From positions 124,001 through 188,000 of the forward strand of contig NZ_BCXD01000006.1 of NCBI RefSeq assembly GCF_001894925.1: a DNA stretch of 64,000 nt, in the 5' to 3' direction. Under the pieces are notes generated by a model. It was given only the letters and a program-made list of their open reading frames with translations. It was not told the origin of the DNA and searched no databases. This document shows positions 995 through 34,772 of this stretch, in pieces (position 1 is the stretch's first letter; every line of letters begins with the position of its first letter). The position numbers were made by a program, and so were the translations under genes. The stretch is from Rhodococcus rhodnii NBRC 100604 (GTDB taxonomy: Bacteria; Actinomycetota; Actinomycetes; Mycobacteriales; Mycobacteriaceae).

Positions 995-1678
995 TCCACA
1001 CTCGGCATGGACTTCCTGCGGTCCTGCTCCATCAAGCACGGAATGTCTTCGGTGATGTTCTCGTTGGAGATGAGCAAGTCCGAGATCGTCATGCGTCTGC
1101 TGTCGGCGGAAGCGAAGATCAAGCTCGGCGACATGCGCTCGGGCAAGATGAACGACGACGACTGGACGCGGCTCGCGCGGCGCATGAGCGAGATCAGCGA
1201 GGCGCCGCTGTACATCGACGATTCGCCGAACCTCACGATGATGGAGATCCGTGCGAAGGCACGGCGGCTCAAGCAGAAGCACGACATCAAACTCGTCGTC
1301 GTCGACTACCTGCAGCTGATGACGTCCGGCAAGAAGGTCGAGTCACGCCAGCAGGAGGTCTCGGAGTTCTCGCGAAGCCTCAAGCTGCTCGCGAAGGAAC
1401 TCGAGGTTCCCGTCGTCGCGATCTGTCAGCTCAACCGTGGGCCCGAGCAGCGCACCGACAAGAAGCCGATGGTCTCGGACCTTCGTGAGTCCGGTTCGCT
1501 CGAGCAGGACGCCGACATGGTCATCCTGCTGCACCGCCCCGACGCGTTCGAGCGTGACGACCCGCGCGCCGGCGAAGCCGACCTCATCCTCGGCAAGCAC
1601 CGCAACGGCCCGACCGCCACGATCACCGTCGCGCACCAGCTTCACCTGTCCAAGTTCGTCGACATGGCCAGGGGCTGA
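1..1678 (+). CDS. dnaB: Replicative DNA helicase DnaB, 3' part, with an in-frame intein (5' end outside window)
   Basis: Hexameric helicase that unwinds DNA ahead of the replisome. The frame is open from base 2 and enters the window inside an intein. The host protein resumes at base 995 with STLGMDFL, the second half of the Walker A loop. Downstream are FSLEMSK, the Walker B segment KLVVVDYLQLM (about 1287-1319), the sensor LRESGSLEQDADMVILLHR and the GKHRNGP motif typical of DnaB. The C-extein is 227 residues, a normal length for the RecA-like half. The N-terminal domain and the first half of the P-loop lie upstream of the window. A 12-bp inverted repeat just after the stop looks like its terminator. 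Confidence 0.95.
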   Translation, partial: RSKNQRTFAEIRTTGEIAETLRCPTADARLNHSVRNAKALELPEQELLVPPYTLGAWLGDGSSACAQFTTADPEIIMHMEAEGIHAVPSAAAALRYTLKLPEAPAKPTRDCVVCGKSFVPFTSEVRTCGRSCGGKARFLSDPVPAPTCGRCGGPSIGLRMCQKCRNEVGTLQACLRTIGVLGDKHIPARYLRASESQRRSLLAGLLDTDGTVTAGGSAQFSVTSERLANDVAELVVSLGYRCQMSRKRVRGRSEESSTAYTLTFSTDDTVFRLSRKVLTHKQRRAAVNTARSDSRFVVDVRKVDSIPVRCVEVDNADHMYVAGRAMVPTHNSTLGMDFLRSCSIKHGMSSVMFSLEMSKSEIVMRLLSAEAKIKLGDMRSGKMNDDDWTRLARRMSEISEAPLYIDDSPNLTMMEIRAKARRLKQKHDIKLVVVDYLQLMTSGKKVESRQQEVSEFSRSLKLLAKELEVPVVAICQLNRGPEQRTDKKPMVSDLRESGSLEQDADMVILLHRPDAFERDDPRAGEADLILGKHRNGPTATITVAHQLHLSKFVDMARG

Positions 1679-1696
1679 CGGGCCTTCAACTGCCGC

Positions 1697-1735
1697 CCGG
1701 TCTGCACGCCCTACTGTGTCGGCCGTGCAGACCGG
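1697..1735. terminator. Bidirectional terminator between dnaB and the YciI-like gene
   Basis: A perfect 12-bp inverted repeat (1697-1708 with 1724-1735) and a 15-nt loop lie between two convergent genes. There is no clear U-tract, as is common in actinobacteria. Confidence 0.6.
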
Positions 1736-1763
1736 TCCGGGTCTCCTCATCGGAGGTGGTCGT

Positions 1764-2081
1764 TCACGCGGGAGTTGCGGCCCGCCTCTGAGCATCGGCC
1801 GCCCAGGGGCCGATCATCGGAATCCATTCGGTGACTTCGTAGGAAGCGACGTAGCCACGGCAGCGGAAGGGGTCGCCCTCGACGACTTCGACGACATCTG
1901 CCTTGCATGACGCTCGATAGATCATTGCCGCGCCGGCTTCCTCGTCGGCGGCGAACGGGCCGGATCCGAGAATCATGCCTCGTTCTGCCGCTTCGGAGAG
2001 GTAGTCCTTGTGTCGTGCCCTGTGAGCATCGCGGCCTGCGGTGTCGTCGGTGTAGCAGTAGCGGACGAGGAAAAAGGCCAT
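1764..2081 (-). CDS. YciI-like small protein (muconolactone-isomerase-like fold)
   Basis: A 105-residue protein starting MAFFLVRYCYTDD, resembling the YciI/YCII family (dimeric ferredoxin-like fold, some members isomerases or dehalogenases). The pattern AHRARHKDYL then GPFAADEEAGA matches the conserved His and the GPF region of that family. The start at 2081 is chosen because a strong AAAGGAG site lies just upstream, inside the end of the flavoprotein gene. Only one base separates the two genes, so they are almost certainly co-translated. A role alongside the flavoprotein in the same catabolic route is inferred; the reaction is unknown. Confidence 0.75.
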   Translation of the reverse strand: MAFFLVRYCYTDDTAGRDAHRARHKDYLSEAAERGMILGSGPFAADEEAGAAMIYRASCKADVVEVVEGDPFRCRGYVASYEVTEWIPMIGPWAADAQRRAATPA

Positions 2082-2082
2082 C

Positions 2083-3819
2083 TCACACTCCTTTGAGAGC
2101 GGCTTCCCGGGCCGGTGCGTTCCGACGCAGGTCGGCCAGTCGGGCGGCGTCGCGACCGATCGTGTAGCCGAAGACGAGCGCGGGACCGATGTTCGCACCG
2201 TAGCCCGGATATCCGCCGCCGAAGATGCTCACTGCTGCGGAACCAGCGGCGAACAGGCCGGGGATGGGCTGCTTGTCCTCGTCGAGGACCTGGCTGTGCC
2301 TATCGACTGCCAGCCCGGAATACGCGCCGAGATCACCCATCTCGATCCTGGCCGCGTAGTACGGGCCCTTGTCGAGCGGTGCAAGGTTGGGGTTCGGCTT
2401 GTGTTCCATATCGCCCTTGAAGTGATGGAACCAGTTGGAACCGCGGCGGAACTTCGGGTCTTCCCCCTTCGCCGCACCCGAATTGAACTCGGACAAAGTA
2501 TTTTTCAGCCCGGTATGGTCGACGCCGATTTTTCGTGCCAGTTCTTCGACCGTCGCTGCCTTGTGGAGGAACCCGGTCCGCTTGAAGTAGGTCTGCGGTA
2601 TCGGCCACGGCTTGGCGTACCCGATGCCGTACTTCCGCATCGCTTTCGAATCGGCGACGATGTACCCGATCGTTCTGTCCTCACCGACGTTGTCATCGAT
2701 CATCGCCATTCCGAAGTCGTGGTACGAACTCGACTCGTTGGCGAAACGTTCGCCCCTGCGGTTGACGGCGATCAACCCCGGGAGGCCGAACGCCCTCAGG
2801 TGGGGAAAGACCCGCGTCTTTCCGCGAAGACCGGTGAACACGGTGACAGGTGCCCATGCGGCGGGTTCGTGCACCCTCGTATCGACATGTCCGCCGAATG
2901 GCGCTGCGAGTCGCACGTTGTCGCCATCGTGTCCGACCGTCGGTGTGAAGTGATTGTCTCCGCCCGGATCGTGGCGCCAGTACTGGGCACGCAGGGAGGG
3001 ATCTGACGAATACCCTCCCGCTGCGATGACGACGCCGAGTCGCGCTTCGACTGTGCACGCGTGGTCTCCGCCGAGCACGGCACCGCTGACGACTCCGTCG
3101 TCATCCTGCAGGATCTTCGTCACGGGGGTCCCTGTCCACAGACGGATACCGAGCTTCGCGGCGGAGGAGACCATCCGGACCATAAGCGAATTACCGTTTG
3201 TGCGGTCGAACGAACGCCGGAACGCCACCGTTTCGACCCACGTCTTGAGTAGCTTCTTCGACACGTAGACGAAGGACCTCAACGACTGCTTCGCATGAAG
3301 GAACTGCGCGATGTCGGGTCCGACCTCCGGCATGTAGCCGAAGACTGTGTACGTATCGAGATAGGGGCGCAACCGTAGCCGGTTCGCGCCGAGCGTGCGA
3401 GCATCGACGGCTTTGCCGGAGATCGCGCGCCCGGACGCCTTCGCGCCAGGGGCGTCCATCTGATAGTCGGGAGCCATTTCGGGATAGACGAACTCGACGT
3501 CGGTCTCCCGTTCGAGCCAGCTGATGGCTTCGGGTACTTCGTCGAGGAAGGTCTCCACCATCTCGGCCTTGAAGCAGTCCTTGGACAGTGCCTTGATGTA
3601 CGTTTCGACCTCTTGGCGGGTATCGCCCTCCGCAACGCCCTGCTTGTTCCCCGGGACCCACGCCCACCCCCCGGAGATCGCGGTGGTTCCGCCGAGCCAT
3701 TCGGACTTCTCCGCGACGATCACACTGTGACCCTCGCTTGCTGCTTTCACTGCCGCGGCCATACCGGCGGCGCCGGATCCGATGACGAGCAGATCACATT
3801 TTGCAGTCTTCGAGTTCAT
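2083..3819 (-). CDS. FAD-dependent dehydrogenase/reductase, 3-ketosteroid-dehydrogenase/fumarate-reductase family
   Basis: A 578-residue flavoprotein. The N-terminal dinucleotide fold is LLVIGSGAAGMAAAVKAA and is followed by GGTTAISGG, a usual flavin-contact segment of FAD_binding_2 enzymes. Near the C-terminus are PIPGLFAAGSAA and GGGYPGYGANIG, the second FAD-binding region found in 3-ketosteroid 1-dehydrogenases and fumarate reductases. The middle presumably forms the substrate cap. Start 3819 is preferred over 3846 because AAAGGAA precedes it. Context (thiolase-like protein, MaoC, acyl-CoA dehydrogenase) suggests it introduces or reduces a C=C bond in a ring or enoate intermediate. A steroid as substrate is not implied by the neighbours. 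It leads directly into the YciI-like gene. Confidence 0.82.
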   Translation of the reverse strand: MNSKTAKCDLLVIGSGAAGMAAAVKAASEGHSVIVAEKSEWLGGTTAISGGWAWVPGNKQGVAEGDTRQEVETYIKALSKDCFKAEMVETFLDEVPEAISWLERETDVEFVYPEMAPDYQMDAPGAKASGRAISGKAVDARTLGANRLRLRPYLDTYTVFGYMPEVGPDIAQFLHAKQSLRSFVYVSKKLLKTWVETVAFRRSFDRTNGNSLMVRMVSSAAKLGIRLWTGTPVTKILQDDDGVVSGAVLGGDHACTVEARLGVVIAAGGYSSDPSLRAQYWRHDPGGDNHFTPTVGHDGDNVRLAAPFGGHVDTRVHEPAAWAPVTVFTGLRGKTRVFPHLRAFGLPGLIAVNRRGERFANESSSYHDFGMAMIDDNVGEDRTIGYIVADSKAMRKYGIGYAKPWPIPQTYFKRTGFLHKAATVEELARKIGVDHTGLKNTLSEFNSGAAKGEDPKFRRGSNWFHHFKGDMEHKPNPNLAPLDKGPYYAARIEMGDLGAYSGLAVDRHSQVLDEDKQPIPGLFAAGSAAVSIFGGGYPGYGANIGPALVFGYTIGRDAARLADLRRNAPAREAALKGV

Positions 3820-3898
3820 CTTTGGTTCCTTTGCAGTGGAGTGCAATTCAGCTTGCTCGCTTTCTGGCTGTGCACATGCTCGGTGGGGCGGACGAAGA

Positions 3899-5667: not shown

Positions 5668-7847
5668 GTGACCCATACGATCGAGAGAGACGTGTTCTCT
5701 CATCAGGACCTCGACGGTCTGATCAACCCGCAGGTGATCGCCGTGGTCGGCGCTTCTGCCACGCCGGGTGGATTCGGGCAGCGGACGATGGAGAACCTCA
5801 GGCACTTCACCGGCCGGGTGTACGGGGTCAATCCACGTTATGACGCGGTGGAAGGCCGGCCGTGCTTTCCGTCTCTGGACGAACTCCCCGAGGTCCCCGA
5901 CTGCGTAATTGTCTGTGTAGCAAAGCCGCTCGTGCTTCGGACGCTCGAGGACGCCGCCCGAGTCGGGGCCCGAGGGGCTGTTGTCTACGCGTCGGGATTC
6001 AGCGAGACGGGATCGGACGGTGGTGTCGTCGACCAGGAAGCGATCGCGGAACTGTCGCAGCGGACCGGACTGCGGGTTGCGGGGCCGAACTGTGTCGGTC
6101 TGACCAACGTCGCCTCCGGCGGCGCCATGAACTTCATGACAGACGCGGGCGCCGTCATCGAGGGCGCTGCCGGGGACATCGCCATCGTGTCGCAGAGCGG
6201 TGCATTGGGTTACACGGTCCTGCAGGGCGTTCAGCGTGGGATCGGGTTCAGCCACTATCTGGCCTCGGGGAACTCTGCTGACGTCGATGTGTGCGATTTC
6301 ATCGCCTACCTGGCCGAGGAGCCCACCGCCAAGGTGATCATCTGTCTGATGGAGGGGGTCAAGAGCGGCGCACGATTCCTGCAGGCGGCCCAACGAGCCG
6401 AGGCGGCAGGCAAGCCACTGATCGTCTACAAGGCCGGAAACGGGGAAAAGAGCGGACTTGCCGCGATGTCGCACACCGGTACCCTCGCCGGCACTACGGC
6501 TGCGTACGCTGCTGCGTGCGAACGCGCTGGCGCAGTCTGGGTCGACAACCTCGAATCCTTGACCGAAGTTGCATCGTTCTTCGCCAAGAATCCCGGCGGC
6601 CCCATCGCGCCCGGCGTCGGGATCATGTCGACATCCGGTGGTGCCGGGGTGATCAACGCGGACAAGGCCGAATACCACGATCTCGACCTCTCGCCGCTCG
6701 ATCCTTCCACCAGTCGGGCACTGAGCGAGGTCGTGCCGGCGTTCGGGCGATCGGCAACCCAGCGGACCTGACAGCCGAGGTGCTCAAGGACGTCGCGACA
6801 TTCTCGCACTGTCTGGACGCCTTCACGTCGGATCCCGGTCTCGGGGCGGTCGTGGTCCCACTGGTGTTCGCGCACGAGACGACGACAGGCGTACGAGCAT
6901 CACTGCTCAGTGAGGTGAGCGCCCGCACTGGAACGGCAGTCGCCGCCGTCTGGATGAACGAATGGCTCGAAGGGCCGGGTAGCCGAGCCCTCGACAGCGA
7001 TCCCTGCGTGACTCTGTTCCGGTCTGCCGCACGGTGCATGCAGACTATTTCGCTCTGGCAGAACTGGCACCACCGACGACGAATCCTCGACGGCCTCGCT
7101 CTCCCGGAACGAATCTCGGATTCCGGTGCCGAGGCGGTCGCCCGAGCTGTCCTCGCGGCCACCGATGCCGAGTCGCCACCTCCAACCGAGCAGCAGGCCA
7201 AGGCCCTCCTTTCCGCCTACGGCATCACCGTGCCCCGCGAGTCGGTCGCGACCACACCGAGCCAGGCTGTGAGCCTGGCCGAACGCTTCGGTTATCCCGT
7301 CGTCCTCAAGGTCTCCTCACCGGACATTCAGCACAAGACCGAGGTGGGTGGTGTCAGGCTGAATCTAGCTACTGCGGAGGAGGTTCGGCTAGCAGCGGCC
7401 GAAATACTGGACAACGCAAGAATTCTCGAGCCGACGGCGCGCATAGATGGTGTCAGTGTGCAGACCATGATCGGCGCCGGCGTCGAAGTACTGCTCGGAG
7501 CTCGGATCGATCCACAGTTCGGCCCGATGATCACCGTGGGCGCCGGAGGCATCTTCGTCGAGCTGCTCCGTGACGTCTCGACGCAGTTGGCGCCGGTGAC
7601 ACCCGAGATCGCACGCCGCGCCATCGAATCGCTCCGCCTGCACAAGATCCTCACCGGACTGCGCGGGGATACCGGCTACGACATCGAGGCCCTCGTCGAT
7701 ACGGTCGTCCGATTCTCGGAAATGGTGAGTGACCTCGCGGACGAACTCAGCGAGGTCGATGTCAATCCGCTCATCGTCGGACGCGCAGGGGCGATCGCCG
7801 CCGACGCACTCATCGTGCCCAGCCATTCGGCAGCGCTCACCGTCTAG
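5668..7847 (+). pseudogene. NDP-forming acyl-CoA synthetase (acetate-CoA ligase ADP-forming family), disrupted by a frameshift
   Basis: Would activate a carboxylate to its CoA thioester. The first segment (5668 to about 6745) carries the CoA-binding Rossmann domain (VIAVVGASATPGGFG) and a ligase-CoA domain with SQSGALGY and MSHTGTLAGT. The second segment (about 6748-7847, shifted frame) continues with IGNPADLTAEVL and an ATP-grasp domain (GYPVVLKVSSPDIQHKTEVG, DVNPLIVGR). Joining VVPAFG to AIGNPADL needs one extra G in the GGG run at 6745-6747, and the first frame stops at 6771. So a single-base deletion splits an otherwise complete gene of about 726 codons. It could be a sequencing error or a real mutation. 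The GTG start at 5668 has a strong AAGGAGG. Confidence 0.85.
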
Positions 7848-25914: not shown

Positions 25915-27201
25915 TCACTCCACCTTGGTGAGTGCATCCCGCTCGTCGTCGGGGTCCGGGTTCGGCGACGGCGCCTTCTCGTCGTTGTAGATCTCGCGGT
26001 CGATCTCGTCGTCGGCATCGGCCACGAGCATCGCGACGAAGGTGTCGCCGTTGACGTTGAGGAAGGTGCGGAAGATGCCGGTGAACCAGTCGACGGCGAT
26101 GAGCAGCCCGACGGCCTCGATGGGCAGGTCGAGTGTCGTTGCGAGAAACAGTGCGACGACGGGGAATCCGCCGGGGACGGTGATGGTGCCGAGGTTGAGC
26201 AGGATCGCGAGCGCCATGCCGAGTGCGACCTGGCCGATGCTCAGCTCGATGTTCCCGGCCTGGGCCAGGAACATCACGACGATCATGTAGTTGAGGACGG
26301 CGCCGTACGATCCCATCGTGAGTCCCACGGACAGCGTGAAATTGGCGATGCGCGGGCTGACGCCGATGCGATCGATCGCGGTCTCGAGCACGGTCGGGAA
26401 CGTGACTGCCGAACTGGTCGTCGTGACGGCGATGGCGGTCTGCCGCGCCAGCTTGGCGGGAAGCTTCGCCGGAGAGAGCCGAGTGCGCACGGCGACCACG
26501 ACGACGAACAGTGCGAACAGGATGAGGACGCCGAGGAGCGTGGTCCCGAGGTACTGCAGGCCGGTCGTGACGACGGAGATTCCCGCGTCTCCCGCGAGCG
26601 CGGCGAGCAGCGCGAACACGCCGATCGGCGCGATGTACATGACGAGCCGGATCATGGTGAGCACGATCTGCTGCACCTGCTCGACGAACGAGAGCACGCG
26701 ATCGTCTCCGGTCTTGCCGACCTGGATGCGCAGCGCGATCCCGAAGAGCAGCGAGAACACGATGATCGGAACCATGGTCGCCGTCGACATGGCGTCGAAG
26801 ATGTTGGTGGACACGAAGTTTCGCAGTGTGTCCTGCCAGCCGAGCGATTCCTGGGCGCTCTCTTCGAGCGTCGGGTCGAGTTCGCCGGTGAAGGTCATGC
26901 CGTCGCCGGGGCGGATCACCGTCGCCAGCACCCACGCGAGCGCGGCCGCGATCGCGGAGAAGCCCAGCATCCACGCGAAGGTGCGAGCGGCGATGCGCCC
27001 CGTGCCGGCGCCGGTCATCGAGCCGGTCGCGACGATGACGGAAGACATCACGAGCGGAACGATCGCCATCTGGATCAGGCGGATGAAGATGTCGCCGACG
27101 AACTGGAGGTTTGTCGCCCACTCGCCGACCGCGAGCCCGAAACAGATGCCCGCGATCGCCGCGATGCCGATCTGCACCGCGGTGTTCTTCAGAGCTCGCA
27201 T
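25915..27201 (-). CDS. DAACS-family dicarboxylate/amino-acid:cation symporter
   Basis: A 428-residue membrane protein of the glutamate/dicarboxylate symporter family with about eight transmembrane helices. It keeps TTTSSAVTFPTVLE (serine-rich re-entrant loop HP1) and the late NVNGDTFVAMLVA (aspartate of TM8). The usual NMDGT sodium/substrate motif of TM7 is replaced: the matching stretch reads VGLTMGSYGAVLNYM. That suggests altered coupling or substrate. The C-terminal tail is acidic. The start ATG 27201 has GAAGGGG upstream. Substrate cannot be named. Confidence 0.85.
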   Translation of the reverse strand: MRALKNTAVQIGIAAIAGICFGLAVGEWATNLQFVGDIFIRLIQMAIVPLVMSSVIVATGSMTGAGTGRIAARTFAWMLGFSAIAAALAWVLATVIRPGDGMTFTGELDPTLEESAQESLGWQDTLRNFVSTNIFDAMSTATMVPIIVFSLLFGIALRIQVGKTGDDRVLSFVEQVQQIVLTMIRLVMYIAPIGVFALLAALAGDAGISVVTTGLQYLGTTLLGVLILFALFVVVVAVRTRLSPAKLPAKLARQTAIAVTTTSSAVTFPTVLETAIDRIGVSPRIANFTLSVGLTMGSYGAVLNYMIVVMFLAQAGNIELSIGQVALGMALAILLNLGTITVPGGFPVVALFLATTLDLPIEAVGLLIAVDWFTGIFRTFLNVNGDTFVAMLVADADDEIDREIYNDEKAPSPNPDPDDERDALTKVE

Positions 27202-27360
27202 GTGTCCGTGTCCCCTTCGTGGTGGTGTCGTCTGCGCGGGATGCTAGGGCCGTCGTGTTGTGTCCGTGTTGCACGGTGATTGCCGTCGGTGTGCCCATAC
27301 CCTGCGGGCGAAGGTTCGGGGTCTTGCGAGGTACCCGCGATGTCGTTTATGGTCGCTTCG

Positions 27361-27388
27361 AAACCAAGCCGGTCGACCGGTTATGTTT
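27361..27388. promoter_or_regulatory. 28-bp palindrome resembling an autoregulatory element (ARE) of butyrolactone receptors
   Basis: A perfect 12-bp core CCGGTCGACCGG (27369-27380) is flanked at four bases on each side by AAAC and GTTT. Both half-sites resemble the YCGGTWYGK half-site known for ArpA-type receptors (CCGGCTTGG and CCGGTTATG). A -10-like TATGTT at 27383-27388 overlaps it, and a GGAGG follows immediately. A bound receptor would block the promoter of the small gene downstream. The gblR receptor gene is about 1.2 kb away. Confidence 0.5.
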
Positions 27389-27398
27389 GGAGGCAGTG

Positions 27399-27434
27399 GT
27401 GAGAACCGACCGAGACGACGGCAACGGGCGGTAG
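27399..27434 (+). CDS. 11-residue leader peptide MRTDRDDGNGR
   Basis: A GTG-initiated micro-ORF with an ideal GGAGG (27389-27393) five bases upstream. It ends at TAG 27432-27434, four bases before the GTG of the 83-residue gene. That gene has only a poor site of its own, so reading of the leader could load ribosomes onto it. There is no regulatory codon run. Confidence 0.4.
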   Translation: MRTDRDDGNGR

Positions 27435-27438
27435 CACC

Positions 27439-27690
27439 GTGTACGCGTCGAGGGCGCAGCCGAACGACACCACTTCCGGCAACTGGAAGGTGGAGTCGAG
27501 GCCCTACGGCTGCGACATCGTGGTCCTACCCGGAGAAGAGGTGTGGGTCCTCGGTGATGTCGGCATGGTGGTGGTTCTCGGCGGCCGCGCCGTCGTCGAG
27601 GGCGACGTCGGAGAGGTCGTGTGGCTGGCCGACGGTGACGTCGTCGTCACCGGCACCGTCACGAAGGGCGCCGGATGCCGGTCGGATTGA
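27439..27690 (+). CDS. Small 83-residue protein with beta-repeat-like sequence
   Basis: Short protein starting MYASRAQPND. Residues about 30-75 alternate hydrophobic and Gly/Asp positions in a near-repeat (VLGDVGMVVVLGG, VVEGDVGEVVWLADG, DVVVTGTVTKG). This pattern suggests stacked beta strands as in small beta-helices. No family assigned. It is preceded by an ARE-like palindrome and a leader peptide, and its 3' end overlaps the end of gblE by 32 bases in the opposite direction. It may be a target of the butyrolactone system. Real coding status is probable but not proven. Confidence 0.5.
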   Translation: MYASRAQPNDTTSGNWKVESRPYGCDIVVLPGEEVWVLGDVGMVVVLGGRAVVEGDVGEVVWLADGDVVVTGTVTKGAGCRSD

Positions 27691-28600
27691 TCGAGGGGTT
27701 CGATCCGGCCGCGCGCACACCGACCGCGCGCACGCCGACCGCGCGCATGATGGCCGTGGCGTCGTACGTGTGCTCCCGCCCCAGCAGATCGATGCTCCGC
27801 TCGGGCACCGCCCGCTCGGCGGCGATCGCGAGTGCGCGATCGAGCGTCACACTCCGCTCCGGAATCGTGAACGACGGATCCTCCGCCGCGGCGCGTTCGA
27901 GCAACGTCCTGATGCGCAGCGGCTCGGGGTCGGCCGCATGAAACACAGCGGCGGCGGGCCAGTCGGGCGTGAGGGCGAGTCGGACGACGAGTTCTGCGAG
28001 ACGGGTCGCCGAGATCGTCGACACCGGGACGTCGCCGTCGTCGATCACAGCGCCGAGCGCACCGACGAGGCGCTTGAGTCCCGGCAGCAGCCACCGATCC
28101 TGCTCACCCGTGACGAAGGCCGCACGCACGACGGTCCCGCCCGCCGCGAGCACGGTGTCCTCGGCTTCGGCCCGGCTGGCGCTCACGGGGCTCACGGGGT
28201 CGCGCACCGCGTCCGATTCGTGGAGCATGGAGTGAGGACCGAGGCCGTACACGCCGATGGTGCTGAGATAGAGGAGCCGCGGCGGGTGTGCGAGAGTGCT
28301 CAGGGCCTCGACGAGGTTGCGGGTTCCCTCGGCGTTCACTCGTTGTGCGAGAGTGGGGTCAGGCCCCGTGTAGGAGACGGCGTGCACCACGACGTGTGCT
28401 CCGTCTCCGACACCGCGCAGTGTCGCGGGGTCGGTGACGTCGAGACGCGGAGTCGTGGACCGTGCGCGGCCGTCGACGCGAATCCCGGCACCACGGAACT
28501 GCTCGGTAATGTGCGTGCCGAGAAAACCGGTCGCGCCCGCGACTGTGGCATGAAGCTCATCGACGGTGGTGAGGCTGTCGTTCAACGGAATCGGTGACAC
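27659..28600 (-). CDS. gblE: NAD-dependent epimerase/dehydratase-like protein of the butyrolactone locus
   Basis: A 313-residue extended-SDR protein. The Rossmann motif is VAGATGFLGTHI, and RLLYLSTIGVYG carries the catalytic-position Ser. The usual YxxxK active-site motif is replaced by SASRAEAE, so Tyr and Lys are both missing and catalysis may be altered. Its place beside an ArpA-type receptor and an AfsA-type synthase matches gblE in the Rhodococcus jostii gbl locus, where it is thought to tailor the signal. GTG start with AAGGAAG; 29 bases separate it from the gblR start. A 15-bp tandem repeat lies in its C-terminal codons. Confidence 0.82.
   Translation of the reverse strand: MSPIPLNDSLTTVDELHATVAGATGFLGTHITEQFRGAGIRVDGRARSTTPRLDVTDPATLRGVGDGAHVVVHAVSYTGPDPTLAQRVNAEGTRNLVEALSTLAHPPRLLYLSTIGVYGLGPHSMLHESDAVRDPVSPVSASRAEAEDTVLAAGGTVVRAAFVTGEQDRWLLPGLKRLVGALGAVIDDGDVPVSTISATRLAELVVRLALTPDWPAAAVFHAADPEPLRIRTLLERAAAEDPSFTIPERSVTLDRALAIAAERAVPERSIDLLGREHTYDATAIMRAVGVRAVGVRAAGSNPSINPTGIRRPS
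27711..27755. repeat. 15-bp tandem repeat in the 3' end of gblE
   Basis: Two near-identical copies (27711-27725 and 27726-27740, one mismatch) and a partial third. On the minus strand they encode RAVGV RAVGV RA. Length variation between strains would be expected. Confidence 0.7.
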
Positions 28601-28629
28601 GATCTTCCTTCGGTACGAGGGGGCTGGCA

Positions 28630-29313
28630 GTGGCGGTACAGGCTCGAGGCAAGTTCACCCGCGCGCAGATCGTTCGCGCTGCCGCGGCGATGTTCGACAA
28701 CCGCGGGTACGACGGCGCGAGCCTCTCGGACGTCGTCGACGAGGCGGGCATCACGAAGGGCGCGCTCTACTTCCATTTCAAGTCGAAGTCCGAGCTCGCG
28801 AGCGTCGTCATCGACGCGCAGCGCCGGATCTCGATGGCGGCGCTCGATCAGATCGTCGAGGAGCACGAGATCAGCCCGATCGGGCAGATCGTGATGATGT
28901 CGCAGGAGCTCGGCCGGCAGATCCGCTGGGAGCCGATCGTCCGGGCAGGCATCCGGCTGACCCTCGAACTCAGCGCGACGTCCGGGCCGCAGGAGCCCTA
29001 CGACGACTGGCTCGAGCGGTGCACCGAACTGCTCGGCGCCGCCGAACGCATCGGTCAGCTCGTTCCCGGGATCGATCACGCGCGCACCGCGCGTTTCGTG
29101 ATCGGTGCCTACACGGGCGTGCAACTCGTGTCGAACGTCTACACCGGCCGCACCGACCTCGAGGGGCGCATCGACGACATGTGGGCGATCGTCCTGCCGT
29201 CCTTCCTCCCCGAGGATCAGCACGACACCATCCCCTCCCTCATCTCGTGCCGGTGGCGGCCGTCCACCGGCGAATCCCTGCTCAGCGACGACTTCCTGGA
29301 TCAGTCGAGCTGA
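28630..29313 (+). CDS. gblR: TetR-family gamma-butyrolactone receptor
   Basis: A 227-residue TetR protein of the ArpA/ScbR type. The helix-turn-helix is at about residues 8-50 (FDNRGYDGASLSDVVDEA, ITKGALYFHFKSK), nearly identical in style to butyrolactone receptors. The C-terminal ligand domain has RWEPIVRAGIRLTLE and the Trp in DDMWAIVLPSF, a position that contacts the lactone in CprB/ArpA. Start 28630 is chosen because GAGGGGG sits six bases upstream; GTG 28594 would overlap gblE. The end overlaps gblA by 13 bases in convergent orientation. It likely represses targets until the lactone binds. Confidence 0.9.
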   Translation: MAVQARGKFTRAQIVRAAAAMFDNRGYDGASLSDVVDEAGITKGALYFHFKSKSELASVVIDAQRRISMAALDQIVEEHEISPIGQIVMMSQELGRQIRWEPIVRAGIRLTLELSATSGPQEPYDDWLERCTELLGAAERIGQLVPGIDHARTARFVIGAYTGVQLVSNVYTGRTDLEGRIDDMWAIVLPSFLPEDQHDTIPSLISCRWRPSTGESLLSDDFLDQSS

Positions 29314-30221
29314 ACCCTGCCCGACGCGCACACGGCGCCGTCCTGCTCGACCCTCGCGCGCAGGACGCCGGGCTCGCCGGTCGGCCGAACGCTCACGAAC
29401 GCGGCGGCGTCGAGTTCGACGAAGCGGTGGAACGAGATGTCGAACGACTGGATCAGCGCGTGGGGCCGGCCCTCGTGCATGCGGCAGGCCTGACGGATCG
29501 CTTCGAGCGTGACCATTCCGGGCAGGTGATCGCTCGGGTGGTCGAACAGCACCGGGTGCGTGATGTCGACGCGGATCGGCCACTCGTCGCCGCGCCGCGG
29601 ACCCACCACGACGTCGGCGGGGCGCGCGACGCCGACGTCGGCTGCCGGTGCGGGGTCGATCCGGATCGCGATGCGCGGCGTGCTCGTCCGGCCGCCGCGC
29701 ATCCGTGAATACGCCTCGGGGTTCATCACCGCGCAGTAGCCGCCCGCGGAGCCGGCGGGGCGGTCGTCGAGAAACAGGTCCGCGGCGAGGGCGAACCCCG
29801 CGACGGTGCCGCCGCGCTGGGCGACGTCGGAGAAGGTGGCGCGCATCGCGAGTCGCGCCGGGACATCACGCATTCGGAGCGCTGCGGCCTCGCACGTGAA
29901 GCGCAGCGCGGAGATGACGAACGCGTGGCCGGACGGCACGTCGTGGACGCGGTGGCCGAGCATCGACGCGGACTGCCGGAACGCCTCGACGAGAAGCATC
30001 GGATCGTGCACGCCGGCGACGGGACGATAGAAGCCGTGCAGGCGCGGTAATTGTGCTGCGACCCAATGGGTGTCGGTGTCGTCGGTGGGGCCGGAATCGG
30101 TCAGCAGCACCTCGGCCACCGCGGCACGGTGCACGAGCGAACGCTCCACCGTGCGCTCCCACGACAACCATTCGGGCGCGCGCCCCACCGGTGTCGAACT
30201 GTCGACGGTCTCCACCACCAT
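29301..30221 (-). CDS. gblA: AfsA-family gamma-butyrolactone biosynthesis protein
   Basis: A 306-residue protein with two AfsA repeats (hotdog-like), the usual length for A-factor synthases. The first repeat contains RLHGFYRPVAGVHDPMLLVEA and FRQSASMLGHR, the second HPVLFDHPSDHLPGMVTLEA and IRQACRMHEG. AfsA enzymes condense a beta-ketoacyl chain with a dihydroxyacetone-type C3 unit to build the butyrolactone precursor. Start 30221 (MVVETVDSSTP) has GAGGGGG four bases upstream. With gblR and gblE it completes a signal-synthase, receptor and tailoring set. A SnoaL-like gene lies 110 bp upstream on the same strand. Confidence 0.92.
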   Translation of the reverse strand: MVVETVDSSTPVGRAPEWLSWERTVERSLVHRAAVAEVLLTDSGPTDDTDTHWVAAQLPRLHGFYRPVAGVHDPMLLVEAFRQSASMLGHRVHDVPSGHAFVISALRFTCEAAALRMRDVPARLAMRATFSDVAQRGGTVAGFALAADLFLDDRPAGSAGGYCAVMNPEAYSRMRGGRTSTPRIAIRIDPAPAADVGVARPADVVVGPRRGDEWPIRVDITHPVLFDHPSDHLPGMVTLEAIRQACRMHEGRPHALIQSFDISFHRFVELDAAAFVSVRPTGEPGVLRARVEQDGAVCASGRVQLD

Positions 30222-30331: not shown

Positions 30332-30730
30332 TCAGGCCTCGGCGACGGGGGTCGTGTGCGACGCGACGCATCGCCACCCGGTGCCGGTACGGATGTAGAC
30401 GTCGGTGGTCCATTCGTCCGCGTCGAAGCGCCGGCCACCGAATTCGGCGGTGTTGGTGACCCGCGCGGTACGCACGGCGGTGTCGCCGTGGATGCGGATA
30501 CGTTCGGTTCCCTCGACGGTCGCCATGGCGTTGTGGACGAGATCGCCGGACGCGACCAGATCGAGGAACGTTCCTCTGCCTCCCACGCCGTCGCCGTCGA
30601 CGAGTACCCAGTCCGGGGTCACGAGCGCCGAGATCGCGTCGGCGTCGTTCGCGACTACCGCCCGTTCGAACTCCTCGGCGGCGGCGTGGACGTCCGCGAC
30701 GTCGTCGCCGGGGACCGGGGGCTCGGACAT
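30332..30730 (-). CDS. SnoaL/DUF4440-like protein (NTF2 fold)
   Basis: A 132-residue small protein with an NTF2-like pattern: an N-terminal helix (AAEEFERAVVANDADAISAL), TPDWVLVDGDG, then strands ending GWRCVASHTTPV. Such proteins include polyketide cyclases, ketosteroid isomerases and detoxifying or stress proteins. The function here is unknown. It lies upstream of gblA on the same strand and could be co-transcribed. The interval 30222-30331 contains one half-site like the ARE motif (30262-30270). Confidence 0.75.
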   Translation of the reverse strand: MSEPPVPGDDVADVHAAAEEFERAVVANDADAISALVTPDWVLVDGDGVGGRGTFLDLVASGDLVHNAMATVEGTERIRIHGDTAVRTARVTNTAEFGGRRFDADEWTTDVYIRTGTGWRCVASHTTPVAEA

Positions 30731-32598: not shown

Positions 32599-32636
32599 CG
32601 CACGCGCCCGAAGACCGAGGTCTTCGGGCGCGTGCG
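32599..32636. terminator. Strong bidirectional terminator hairpin
   Basis: A perfect 18-bp inverted repeat (32599-32616 with 32619-32636) with a two-base loop, directly after the pyruvate-kinase-like gene and before the convergent 22-aa ORF. No U-tract. Confidence 0.8.
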
Positions 32637-32651: not shown

Positions 32652-32720
32652 TCAGAGACCCCCGAGCAGCAGGTGCAGCAGATCCCCGACGATTCCGATC
32701 AGTCCTGCGACGAGTCCCAT
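32652..32720 (-). CDS. 22-residue hydrophobic small ORF (MGLVAGLIGIVGDLLHLLLG..)
   Basis: An ATG-initiated 22-codon frame with AAAGGA about seven bases upstream and TGA stop. The peptide is almost wholly Leu/Ile/Val/Gly, ending GGL, with a single Asp and His near the middle. It could form one short amphipathic or membrane-spanning helix. A terminator hairpin flanks its 3' side, and a possible -10 (TAACGT on the minus strand, near 32780) lies about 60 bases upstream. Too small for routine gene callers. Possible roles are a membrane micro-peptide, a toxin of a type I system or a secreted amphipathic peptide. Confidence 0.55.
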   Translation of the reverse strand: MGLVAGLIGIVGDLLHLLLGGL

Positions 32721-33134
32721 GTGACGTTCCTTTCGAGTGAATTGCCTTGCCACCCCGCGGTTTCGGGGACGAGGAGAACGTTATGCGGCGACGGTTGCGT
32801 GGCGGTTTCGCGTTGTTACCCGCGTGTGCGGTCCCCGCCCCCGCAGATCACGTATCTGTGACGCCACGACACACTTGTCGCAGCCGATTCGGGCGATTCG
32901 TGCAGAACCGATACAGAACCATCCGACCGGTATCTCCGATTCCGGACGGTGGGTATGCACGCCTTCGTCGTGACCGGATCGTGACATTCGGGCGCGTGAC
33001 GTCCTGCTCGATCTGTAACGCGACGTGCGGCGCGGGCGACTATCGATCGACAGCGCGTGCCGCTCCACGCGGCGCCGTCGTACGGCCCCACCAGGAGCCG
33101 ATACTCAGGAGCCGACAGCTATGAGGCCGAGATC
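32721..33134. other. 414-bp intergenic region between the small ORF and the cutinase-like gene
   Basis: Divergent promoter space. I saw a likely minus-strand promoter near 32780 for the 22-aa ORF, and several AT-richer patches (for example 32913-32945) that could hold the promoter of the cutinase-like gene. No further gene with good coding bias and no riboswitch structure I can recognise. Confidence 0.4.
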
Positions 33135-34772
33135 ATGAGTTCGCATCGACCAGCCCATGCCCGCACAGCACCCGACGGCGGGACCGGCTCCAGACGGTTG
33201 CTGCGCACCGCCGCACTTCCCGCCGCGCTGGGCCTGGCCGTGATGCTCCTCGCCTACTGGGCGATCGCCCCGCAGGAACCGACCCGCCGGGACACCCAGC
33301 TCACGTCGTCGGTCACCGAGTGCCGCGAGATGGTCACCATCTCGATCGCGGGACGCGGCGACGCGCCGACCGATCACACCAAGATGCTGGTGGACGCCGC
33401 GGGCAACCCGCTCCCTGCAACGCTGTCCGACGACTATTCGAGCGAGTGGCTCGATCCCGTCGTCAACGCTCCCCGCGACGCCGGTGCCGACGCCGCCGCC
33501 GTCTACATCGCGTACCCCGCGAACATGAACTCCTACGACACCGCCGTGCAGCAGGGCGTCGAGAACGCGTCCGCCGTCATCCGCTCGATCAGCCAGGCGT
33601 GCCCGGGCACCCGATTCGCCATCACCGGCTACAGCGAGGGCGCCGACGTCGCGCGCCGCGTCGCGATGGACATCGGCAACGCGCAGCCCGCCGCCGACGG
33701 CCGGTACGCGATCGTCGATCCTGCCTCCGTCGTGGGTGTCGTCATTCTCTCCGACACGGGACGCGCGGTCGGCGACGGCCCGTTCCCCGGCGCCGAGAAT
33801 CCGTTCGGGAATCCCGACGGCTTCGATCGCGAGTACCAGCGCCACACCAATCCCGCGGGCGGGCAGGGCGCGATGCCGGACTCGGCCGGTGGCTTCGGAG
33901 CGCTCGACGGCAGGGTCGCGTCGTTCTGCTCGGACGGCGACCTGTTCTGTGCTGCGCCGCAGAACATCTCGCTGCTGCAGCTCGCCGTCAACGTCGGCCG
34001 GCAGCTCGACGTCGACGGACTCGAGCAGCAGGGCCTGACCGAGGCGACCGGCGGCGGCGTCGCGCTCGTCGTCGGGCGAATCGCGCTCGACGCACTCGCC
34101 CGGATCGGATCCGATCCGAACTGGATGGCGAGCGACGAGACGTTCCTCGACGTCCTGCTCGAGGTCTCGACGCCCGGGTACGACGGCAGCGCCGTCACCC
34201 CCGTCGCGCGCGACACGATCGAGGCGGGCGAGATGGCCGGGCTGTCCAATCTGCCGCGCAAGCTGATGAACGAGATCGTGAATCTCGTCGTCACCAACCA
34301 GAACACGATTCCCGTCGTCATGAGCGACCCGTACCAGCTGACCCTCGGCTGGAAGGACGGACACCACTTCGACTACTGGCGTGACGCGAACGACGACCGC
34401 CCGCTGTCGTCCGCCGACTACGCGGCGCAGTGGCTGACCTACCTCGCGCAGCAGCCGCCCGCCGAGCGCGCGACGCTCGTCGCCGCGACGAGTGCCGCCG
34501 ACGCGACGTCGACCACGACCGCACCCACCACGACGACCACGACCACGACCACGACGACCACCACGGTGCCGCCGTCCTCGACGCCGCTTCCCGGCGACGT
34601 CGTGCCGCCCACCGAGACGGTGCCCCCGGTCGACGGCGTGCCGACCGAGATCATCCTGCCGACGATCACGGACGTCCCCACGAGCCCGACGACGCCGGTG
34701 CCGCCGAGCGGCACGCCGTCCCCGACGACTCCCCCGACGACCACGACCACGACTCCGGTTCCGTCGCGCTGA
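33135..34772 (+). CDS. Exported cutinase-like serine esterase with a Thr/Pro-rich tail
   Basis: A 545-residue protein of the cutinase superfamily, akin to mycobacterial Culp proteins that act on envelope lipids. Residues about 20-45 form a signal anchor (LPAALGLAVMLLAYWAI). The nucleophile motif is ITGYSEGADVARR, and the catalytic His is likely in GWKDGHHFDYW. Cysteines at TECREMV and SFCSDGDLFC could form disulfides. After about residue 445 comes a low-complexity tail of Thr and Pro, presumably a wall-spanning or glycosylated stalk. Start ATG 33135 follows a weak GAG site. Confidence 0.8.
   Translation: MSSHRPAHARTAPDGGTGSRRLLRTAALPAALGLAVMLLAYWAIAPQEPTRRDTQLTSSVTECREMVTISIAGRGDAPTDHTKMLVDAAGNPLPATLSDDYSSEWLDPVVNAPRDAGADAAAVYIAYPANMNSYDTAVQQGVENASAVIRSISQACPGTRFAITGYSEGADVARRVAMDIGNAQPAADGRYAIVDPASVVGVVILSDTGRAVGDGPFPGAENPFGNPDGFDREYQRHTNPAGGQGAMPDSAGGFGALDGRVASFCSDGDLFCAAPQNISLLQLAVNVGRQLDVDGLEQQGLTEATGGGVALVVGRIALDALARIGSDPNWMASDETFLDVLLEVSTPGYDGSAVTPVARDTIEAGEMAGLSNLPRKLMNEIVNLVVTNQNTIPVVMSDPYQLTLGWKDGHHFDYWRDANDDRPLSSADYAAQWLTYLAQQPPAERATLVAATSAADATSTTTAPTTTTTTTTTTTTTVPPSSTPLPGDVVPPTETVPPVDGVPTEIILPTITDVPTSPTTPVPPSGTPSPTTPPTTTTTTPVPSR
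34505..34566. repeat. Thr-codon microsatellite in the cutinase-like gene
   Basis: Runs of ACC/ACG in a CGACCAC-like period encode a stretch of 13 consecutive Thr. Likely prone to slippage and length change. Confidence 0.7.

Follow-up and report, generated by a model that had tools for sequence, protein, structure and literature searches.

Which genes does a gamma-butyrolactone (gbl) signalling cluster control when its best candidate receptor site lies outside the gbl genes themselves? The question is raised by a stretch of 64,000 nucleotides from Rhodococcus rhodnii NBRC 100604 (NZ_BCXD01000006.1; G000:C6:124001-188000 in our numbering), hereafter the window, taken from a genome of 4.46 Mb in 70 contigs. 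It carries genes for a synthase (gblA), a receptor (gblR) and an epimerase-family protein (gblE) and, beside them, a palindrome that we predict to be a receptor operator, or autoregulatory element (ARE), between a gene for a symporter and a small divergent open reading frame (ORF), orf83. The gbl system is already known; the placement of an operator beside neighboring genes is a prediction.

A predicted receptor operator outside the gbl genes

The palindrome spans 27361-27388 (AAACCAAGCCGGTCGACCGGTTATGTTT, with 11 of 14 pairs matching), is intergenic and has a GCCG-6-CGGT core in keeping with the ACCG-6-CGGT dyad of AREs. It was scored with two learned motifs, both trained without the window sequence, from 80 named gbl loci (the best 80 of 520 from an alignment query) and from stretches around synthase matches in further genomes. 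Motif 1, palindromic and 24 bp long, was trained on the gblA upstream stretches, at most 420 bp long and in a few cases shorter, of all 66 among the best 80 loci that are not titled Rhodococcus or Prescottella, and shows an ACCG-6-CGGT core with A/T flanks that resembles the published ARE. Motif 2 represents the Rhodococcus group and was built from 26 loci (14 named, 12 other) of Rhodococcus and close genera, one of which, L052, belongs to a different genus of the family. Near-identical loci were down-weighted, and duplicates of named loci, loci lacking gblR and gblE matches, and L064, from another family of the order, were left out. It was seeded by motif 1, and random starts led to nearly the same motif with slightly higher likelihood. 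The 24-mer 27363-27386 scores 9.9 bits with motif 1 and 17.0 bits with motif 2, levels at which 0.38 and 0.10 positions, respectively, are expected per 64 kb, and it ranks second and first in the window (Table 1). When the intergenic region (237 bp) was shuffled by dinucleotides, these scores were reached with p 0.003 and 0.0005, values qualified by the fact that the region was picked once the site was already known.

Sites of this strength are also found at other gbl loci. Across the 14 named Rhodococcus and Prescottella loci (204 kb), nine sites score at the level of the palindrome, seven of them upstream of gblA (partly training sites), one upstream of gblR and one beyond gblE. This last site, in Rhodococcus sp. 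HNM0563, lies 118 bp past the gblE stop, on the side of the cluster where the window site also lies, with no downstream gene in common recognized between the two. The gblA operator of R. ruber and R. aetherivorans, AAACCGGTCGAYCGGTTT, differs from the palindrome by two letters. With up to one mismatch allowed, a search of 301 genomes of the family finds it in 3; two of the three places are gblA promoters (L226, L227) and the third (L225) falls inside ORFs. What is observed directly is the gene set and the statistical resemblance of the site to receptor operators at other gblA promoters. An operator of the receptor type located away from the gbl genes, as the original prediction from the bare sequence had proposed, is thus backed by both learned motifs and by the intergenic shuffles, and the predicted site, statistically well supported, is most likely an operator of GblR.

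Several counts weigh against this assignment and in favor of a G+C-rich dyad that is present by chance or that serves some unrelated regulator. The window holds 22 equally symmetric centers against 13.0 expected, an ArpA consensus finds 9 places at 17 of 22 letters against 6.1 expected at 17 or more, and the published SfbR consensus (PMC7480387) finds 5 places at two mismatches against about 4.5 expected; the published AvaR1 consensus (PMC5744401) likewise gives chance-level counts, and the palindrome fails to match the strict actinobacterial pattern AAMAWACCRNNCGNNYGGTWTNTT at up to three mismatches. The expected numbers per 64 kb quoted above are small, yet the region was picked after the fact. 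Against chance, the palindrome comes first or second of 63,977 positions by motifs trained elsewhere, is intergenic and only 273 bp from the gbl cluster, and has a nearly identical R. ruber-type counterpart that is very rare elsewhere; overall we consider a chance or unrelated dyad quite unlikely. The ARE-like palindrome therefore stands insofar as it exists and is backed by the learned motifs, whereas by symmetry and short consensus alone it is at chance level. With the ArpA, SfbR and AvaR1 counts all at chance, short-consensus counting was rejected as proof of an ARE, and a degenerate pattern, with 202 matches on the two strands, was useless because its reversed control gave more than 1,100.

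Comparisons across genomes and within the own genome add further points on the unfavorable side. The palindrome pattern at up to two mismatches is present in 2 of 61 genomes, R. rhodnii itself and one from another family of the order, so conservation was rejected as support; in the other genomes of the genus it was not found at two mismatches. The own-genome loci scored in the shuffle and level comparison amount to 146 kb and are a biased sample because most were fetched by pattern searches; among them, L089 (17.8 bits) and L193 (17.5 bits) exceed the palindrome with motif 2, and a site before a second receptor gene, on contig C56, exceeds it with motif 1. On the favorable side, the related pattern AAACCGNTCGANCGGTTT has 23 places in the own genome at up to three mismatches (reversed control, 1), two of them at two mismatches, the palindrome and C1:211968. 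The latter (L193:1498-1521) is ARE-like and lies about 110 bp before an ORF that by eye resembles an acyl-CoA dehydrogenase.

Table 1. Features of the window discussed in the text (positions are those of the window).
Feature	Position	Strand	Basis
Predicted receptor operator (ARE), palindrome core	27363-27386	.	Rank 2 and 1 of 63,977 with two learned motifs
orf83, orphan 83-residue protein, first-choice candidate target	27439-27690	+	Coding-like codon use
SDF-family (sodium:dicarboxylate symporter) gene, divergent rival target	25915-27201	-	PF00375 304 bits
gblE, epimerase-family protein	27659-28600	-	PF01370 60.3 bits
gblR, ScbR/ArpA-type TetR receptor	28630-29313	+	NF041196 195.7 bits (cut-off 150)
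gblA, AfsA/ScbA-type synthase	29301-30221	-	NF041195 270.4 bits (cut-off 200); PF03756 123.9 bits
Second ARE-like site, facing the cutinase-family gene	32913-32936	+	Motif 1 rank 1, motif 2 rank 3
Cutinase-family protein gene, possible target of 32913-32936	33135-34772	+	PF01083 54 bits (run from 33138)

The gbl genes and their receptor

The complete gbl set of the original prediction, comprising an AfsA-type synthase, an ArpA-type receptor and an epimerase-like gene, is confirmed by profile matches. GblA scores above its family cut-off, as does the adjoining ScbR/ArpA-type receptor, and the gene next to gblR encodes a GblE-type epimerase-family protein whose best segments are 32-46% identical to neighbors of other gblR genes; alignments to these relatives begin at about residue 16-22, and the true gblE start may therefore be TTG 28585. 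gblR and gblA are convergent with a 13-bp overlap, and the starts of gblR and gblE are separated by a 29-bp gap. In GblR the recognition helix (T42-F50) and W127 are retained in an alignment of eight rows, W127 being present in all of them, and the helix, TKGALYFHF, is the same in the receptors of the named Rhodococcus and Prescottella loci and of the R. ruber-type loci; among solved structures, the chains closest to GblR are a butyrolactone receptor (5xaz), AvaR1 and CprB. The synthase family is present in 25 of 61 genomes and over the cut-off in 19, and a single-protein search returned no closer relatives of the locus. Judged from its predicted genes, this is an ordinary Rhodococcus-type gbl cluster, a system of known kind. 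Directly upstream of gblA and in the same direction is a DUF4440/SnoaL-like gene (30332-30730, minus strand; PF14534, 54.3 bits), and the two may share one transcript.

GblR (195.9 bits in the genome-wide search) is the single ScbR-type receptor of the own genome above the cut-off, the next best reaching 143.5 bits (C56) and 119.7 bits (C6, outside the window). The C56 protein (C56:3145-3717) could in principle bind the palindrome in place of GblR: its score falls just under the cut-off of 150, it keeps TKGA-YFHF, and an ARE-like site precedes its own gene at 16.7 bits with motif 1, against 9.9 for the palindrome. It is, however, only 29% identical to GblR and is encoded next to a phage-type integrase gene on another contig, and we regard its being the cognate receptor as distinctly improbable. 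In L072 (contig C56), the stretch 1356-3822 holds this receptor gene, the integrase gene and, by eye, an XRE-like ORF, with the ARE-like site at L072:2963, and the protein is possibly a mobile orphan receptor.

A receptor operator upstream of gblA or gblR is a usual, though not universal, mark of such systems, and none was found in the window: neither motif recognizes an ARE in the gap between gblE and gblR (best ranks 338 and 331 of window positions) or upstream of gblA (635 and 1092). The half-sites proposed for these two places, TTCGGTACG between gblE and gblR (placed at 28611-28619, in fact at 28609-28617) and another near gblA, were rejected as ARE support on these ranks. It is important to note that only 7 of the 14 named loci carry a site as strong as the palindrome at gblA, so that a divergent operator may be missed here.

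Candidate targets on either side of the cluster

For GblR binding, the lactone response, the promoter and the target, we infer the following. GblA and GblE would make a butyrolactone-like signal, in the absence of which GblR, a TetR-family receptor, would repress by binding the palindrome core between the divergent symporter gene and orf83 and silencing a promoter there; accumulating lactone would then release GblR from the operator. The first-choice target would be orf83, with the operator either covering a TATGTT -10 element or directly following a TTGCGA-18-TATGGT promoter. Based on the sequence evidence above, we give this reading as a whole, that is binding of GblR at 27363-27386, its release by lactone and orf83 as the first-choice target, an even chance of being correct.

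orf83 is preferred because its start lies 65 bp from the operator center, and its codon use is coding-like, at 0.43 bits per codon where the nine ORFs behind the codon table span 0.22-0.73. Toward it, two promoters can be read by eye: TTGCGA-18-TATGGT at 27324-27353, in which case the operator would sit just after the start point, and a TATGTT -10 at 27382-27387, inside the operator. Ending just before the orf83 start is a leader ORF of 12-13 codons, also read by eye (27396-27434). Other results run counter to the choice of orf83. A sigma-70 scan of 27150-27700 found no promoter in either direction, and a terminator-like hairpin (27324-27340) overlaps the by-eye -35; the -10 overlap that had been claimed for the palindrome is thus visible as TATGTT but not returned by the scan. 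orf83 is moreover an orphan, with no family in profile searches, no relatives in 60 genomes and no match among 72,556 plasmid records. A search of 300 further genomes of the family gave only four matches, all weak and unconvincing (E 4.5e-4 to 0.006). The open frames around them run to 548, 127 (interrupted by a stop), 152 and 951 codons; the two with ORF lists inspected lie antisense to a 201-residue ORF (L222) and inside a 246-residue ORF (L223). Conservation of orf83 was rejected on these grounds, and its predicted structure is not usable (mean predicted local distance difference test score, 47.6).

The divergent symporter gene, which starts at 27201, is the other candidate, and control of it, alone or mainly, would mean that the signal tunes dicarboxylate or amino acid uptake. 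It is a well-formed gene, unlike orphan orf83. At E 1e-60 no match to it was found in 40 relatives. Its start is 173 bp from the operator center, a usual distance, since in the R. ruber clade the AREs precede the start of the gblA match by 170-224 bp. A motif made directional, for which 63 of 66 training sites were kept (score at least 14) and which recovered the direction of 61 of these 63, gives 5.3 toward the symporter gene and 5.2 toward orf83; choosing a target by this means was rejected because the scores are equal, and with an operator between divergent genes orf83 is only one of two candidate targets. On the other side, the operator is nearer to orf83, and no promoter covering it is seen by eye in the symporter direction, the sigma-70 scan finding none either way. 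We consider sole or main control of the symporter gene unlikely. Of the small gene at 27439 as proposed target, the ORF and its coding-like codon use stand, whereas the directional motif favors the symporter gene equally.

A second ARE-like site, additional to those of the original prediction, lies on the other side of the cluster and faces a cutinase-family gene. The sequence ACAGAACCATCCGACCGGTATCTC at 32913-32936 is reached in shuffles with p 0.003 (motif 1) and 0.006 (motif 2), and its directional score is 10.4 toward the cutinase-family gene against 0.6 in the opposite direction. It is one of only two own-genome places that match the strict actinobacterial pattern at up to three mismatches, the other being C35:19153 (reversed control, 0). 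A far weaker copy begins at 32936 (0.1 bits, motif 1 rank 16; negative by the directional motif). On contig C35, an ARE-like place (L209:1501-1524) is found past an ORF that by eye resembles a secreted peptidase.

The surroundings of the second site have features of their own. A leader ORF of five codons, read by eye (33121-33138), ends just before the start of the cutinase-family gene, and leader ORFs hence precede both genes adjoining ARE-like sites. The ATG of the cutinase-family gene is at 33135; the profile, codon-use and peptide-context analyses ran it from 33138. On the other side of the site is a gene for a 22-residue hydrophobic peptide (32652-32720, minus strand), with an AAGGAA ribosome site seen by eye. 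Among 41 genomes searched, the peptide has an identical counterpart in G002 and one of 95% identity in G022, with about 87% DNA identity and a different gene neighborhood; in G002 the peptide gene is preceded, at a distance of about 210 bp, by only a weak ARE-like string (8.6 and 0.5 bits), and G022 has none among its best strings near it. The strongest inverted repeat of the window (32604-32631, with 13 of 14 pairs matching) separates the pyruvate kinase gene from the peptide gene and is probably a terminator.

With predicted sites flanking the cluster and none recognized at any gbl gene, the circuit may be an open loop in which the signal directly switches lineage-specific neighbors, a reading that we hold only tentatively and think rather doubtful. 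If true, the signal would switch the cutinase-family gene and, across the cluster from it, orf83 and/or the symporter gene. The receptor-site motif of the group, with candidate sites at two places no more than 3 kb from the cluster, offers direct first targets for gel shifts.

Comparison with known systems

In Streptomyces, the receptor operators of SfbR (PMC7480387) and AvaR1 (PMC5744401) are described, in the parts of these papers considered here, as dyads of about 18 nt, often over a -10 box, and receptor targets outside the gbl genes are known. GblR belongs to the same receptor family, and the dyad operator type is alike; the Streptomyces operators, some of them at gbl promoters, have been examined by gel shift and footprint, whereas the operator described here is a prediction. 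Judged by titles and the beginnings of abstracts, none of the open-access papers listed for Rhodococcus with gblA, GblR or receptor and autoregulatory elements reports a receptor operator in this genus.

Within the genus, Ceniceros et al. (2017) found that the signal of R. jostii RHA1 requires gblA, and in the rhodococcal clusters gblR is mostly flanked by gblA and gblE, with flanking genes that vary between species (PMC5735094). The R. rhodnii cluster has the same three genes as R. jostii RHA1 and other rhodococci, with gblR between gblA and gblE; the portions of that report drawn on here give no operator or target, while the best operator match in the window lies outside the gbl genes. In R. 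ruber and R. aetherivorans (L117 and L115), a second, weaker ARE-like site of 8.9 bits, at 6959-6982, accompanies the main one and lies near the gblA start, directly after CTATAGT. The AREs of the R. ruber clade are upstream of gblA, whereas the gblA upstream region in R. rhodnii is without a recognizable site, and the core CCGGTCGAnCGGTT is common to the gblA-promoter AREs of that clade (L113-L117) and to the palindrome.

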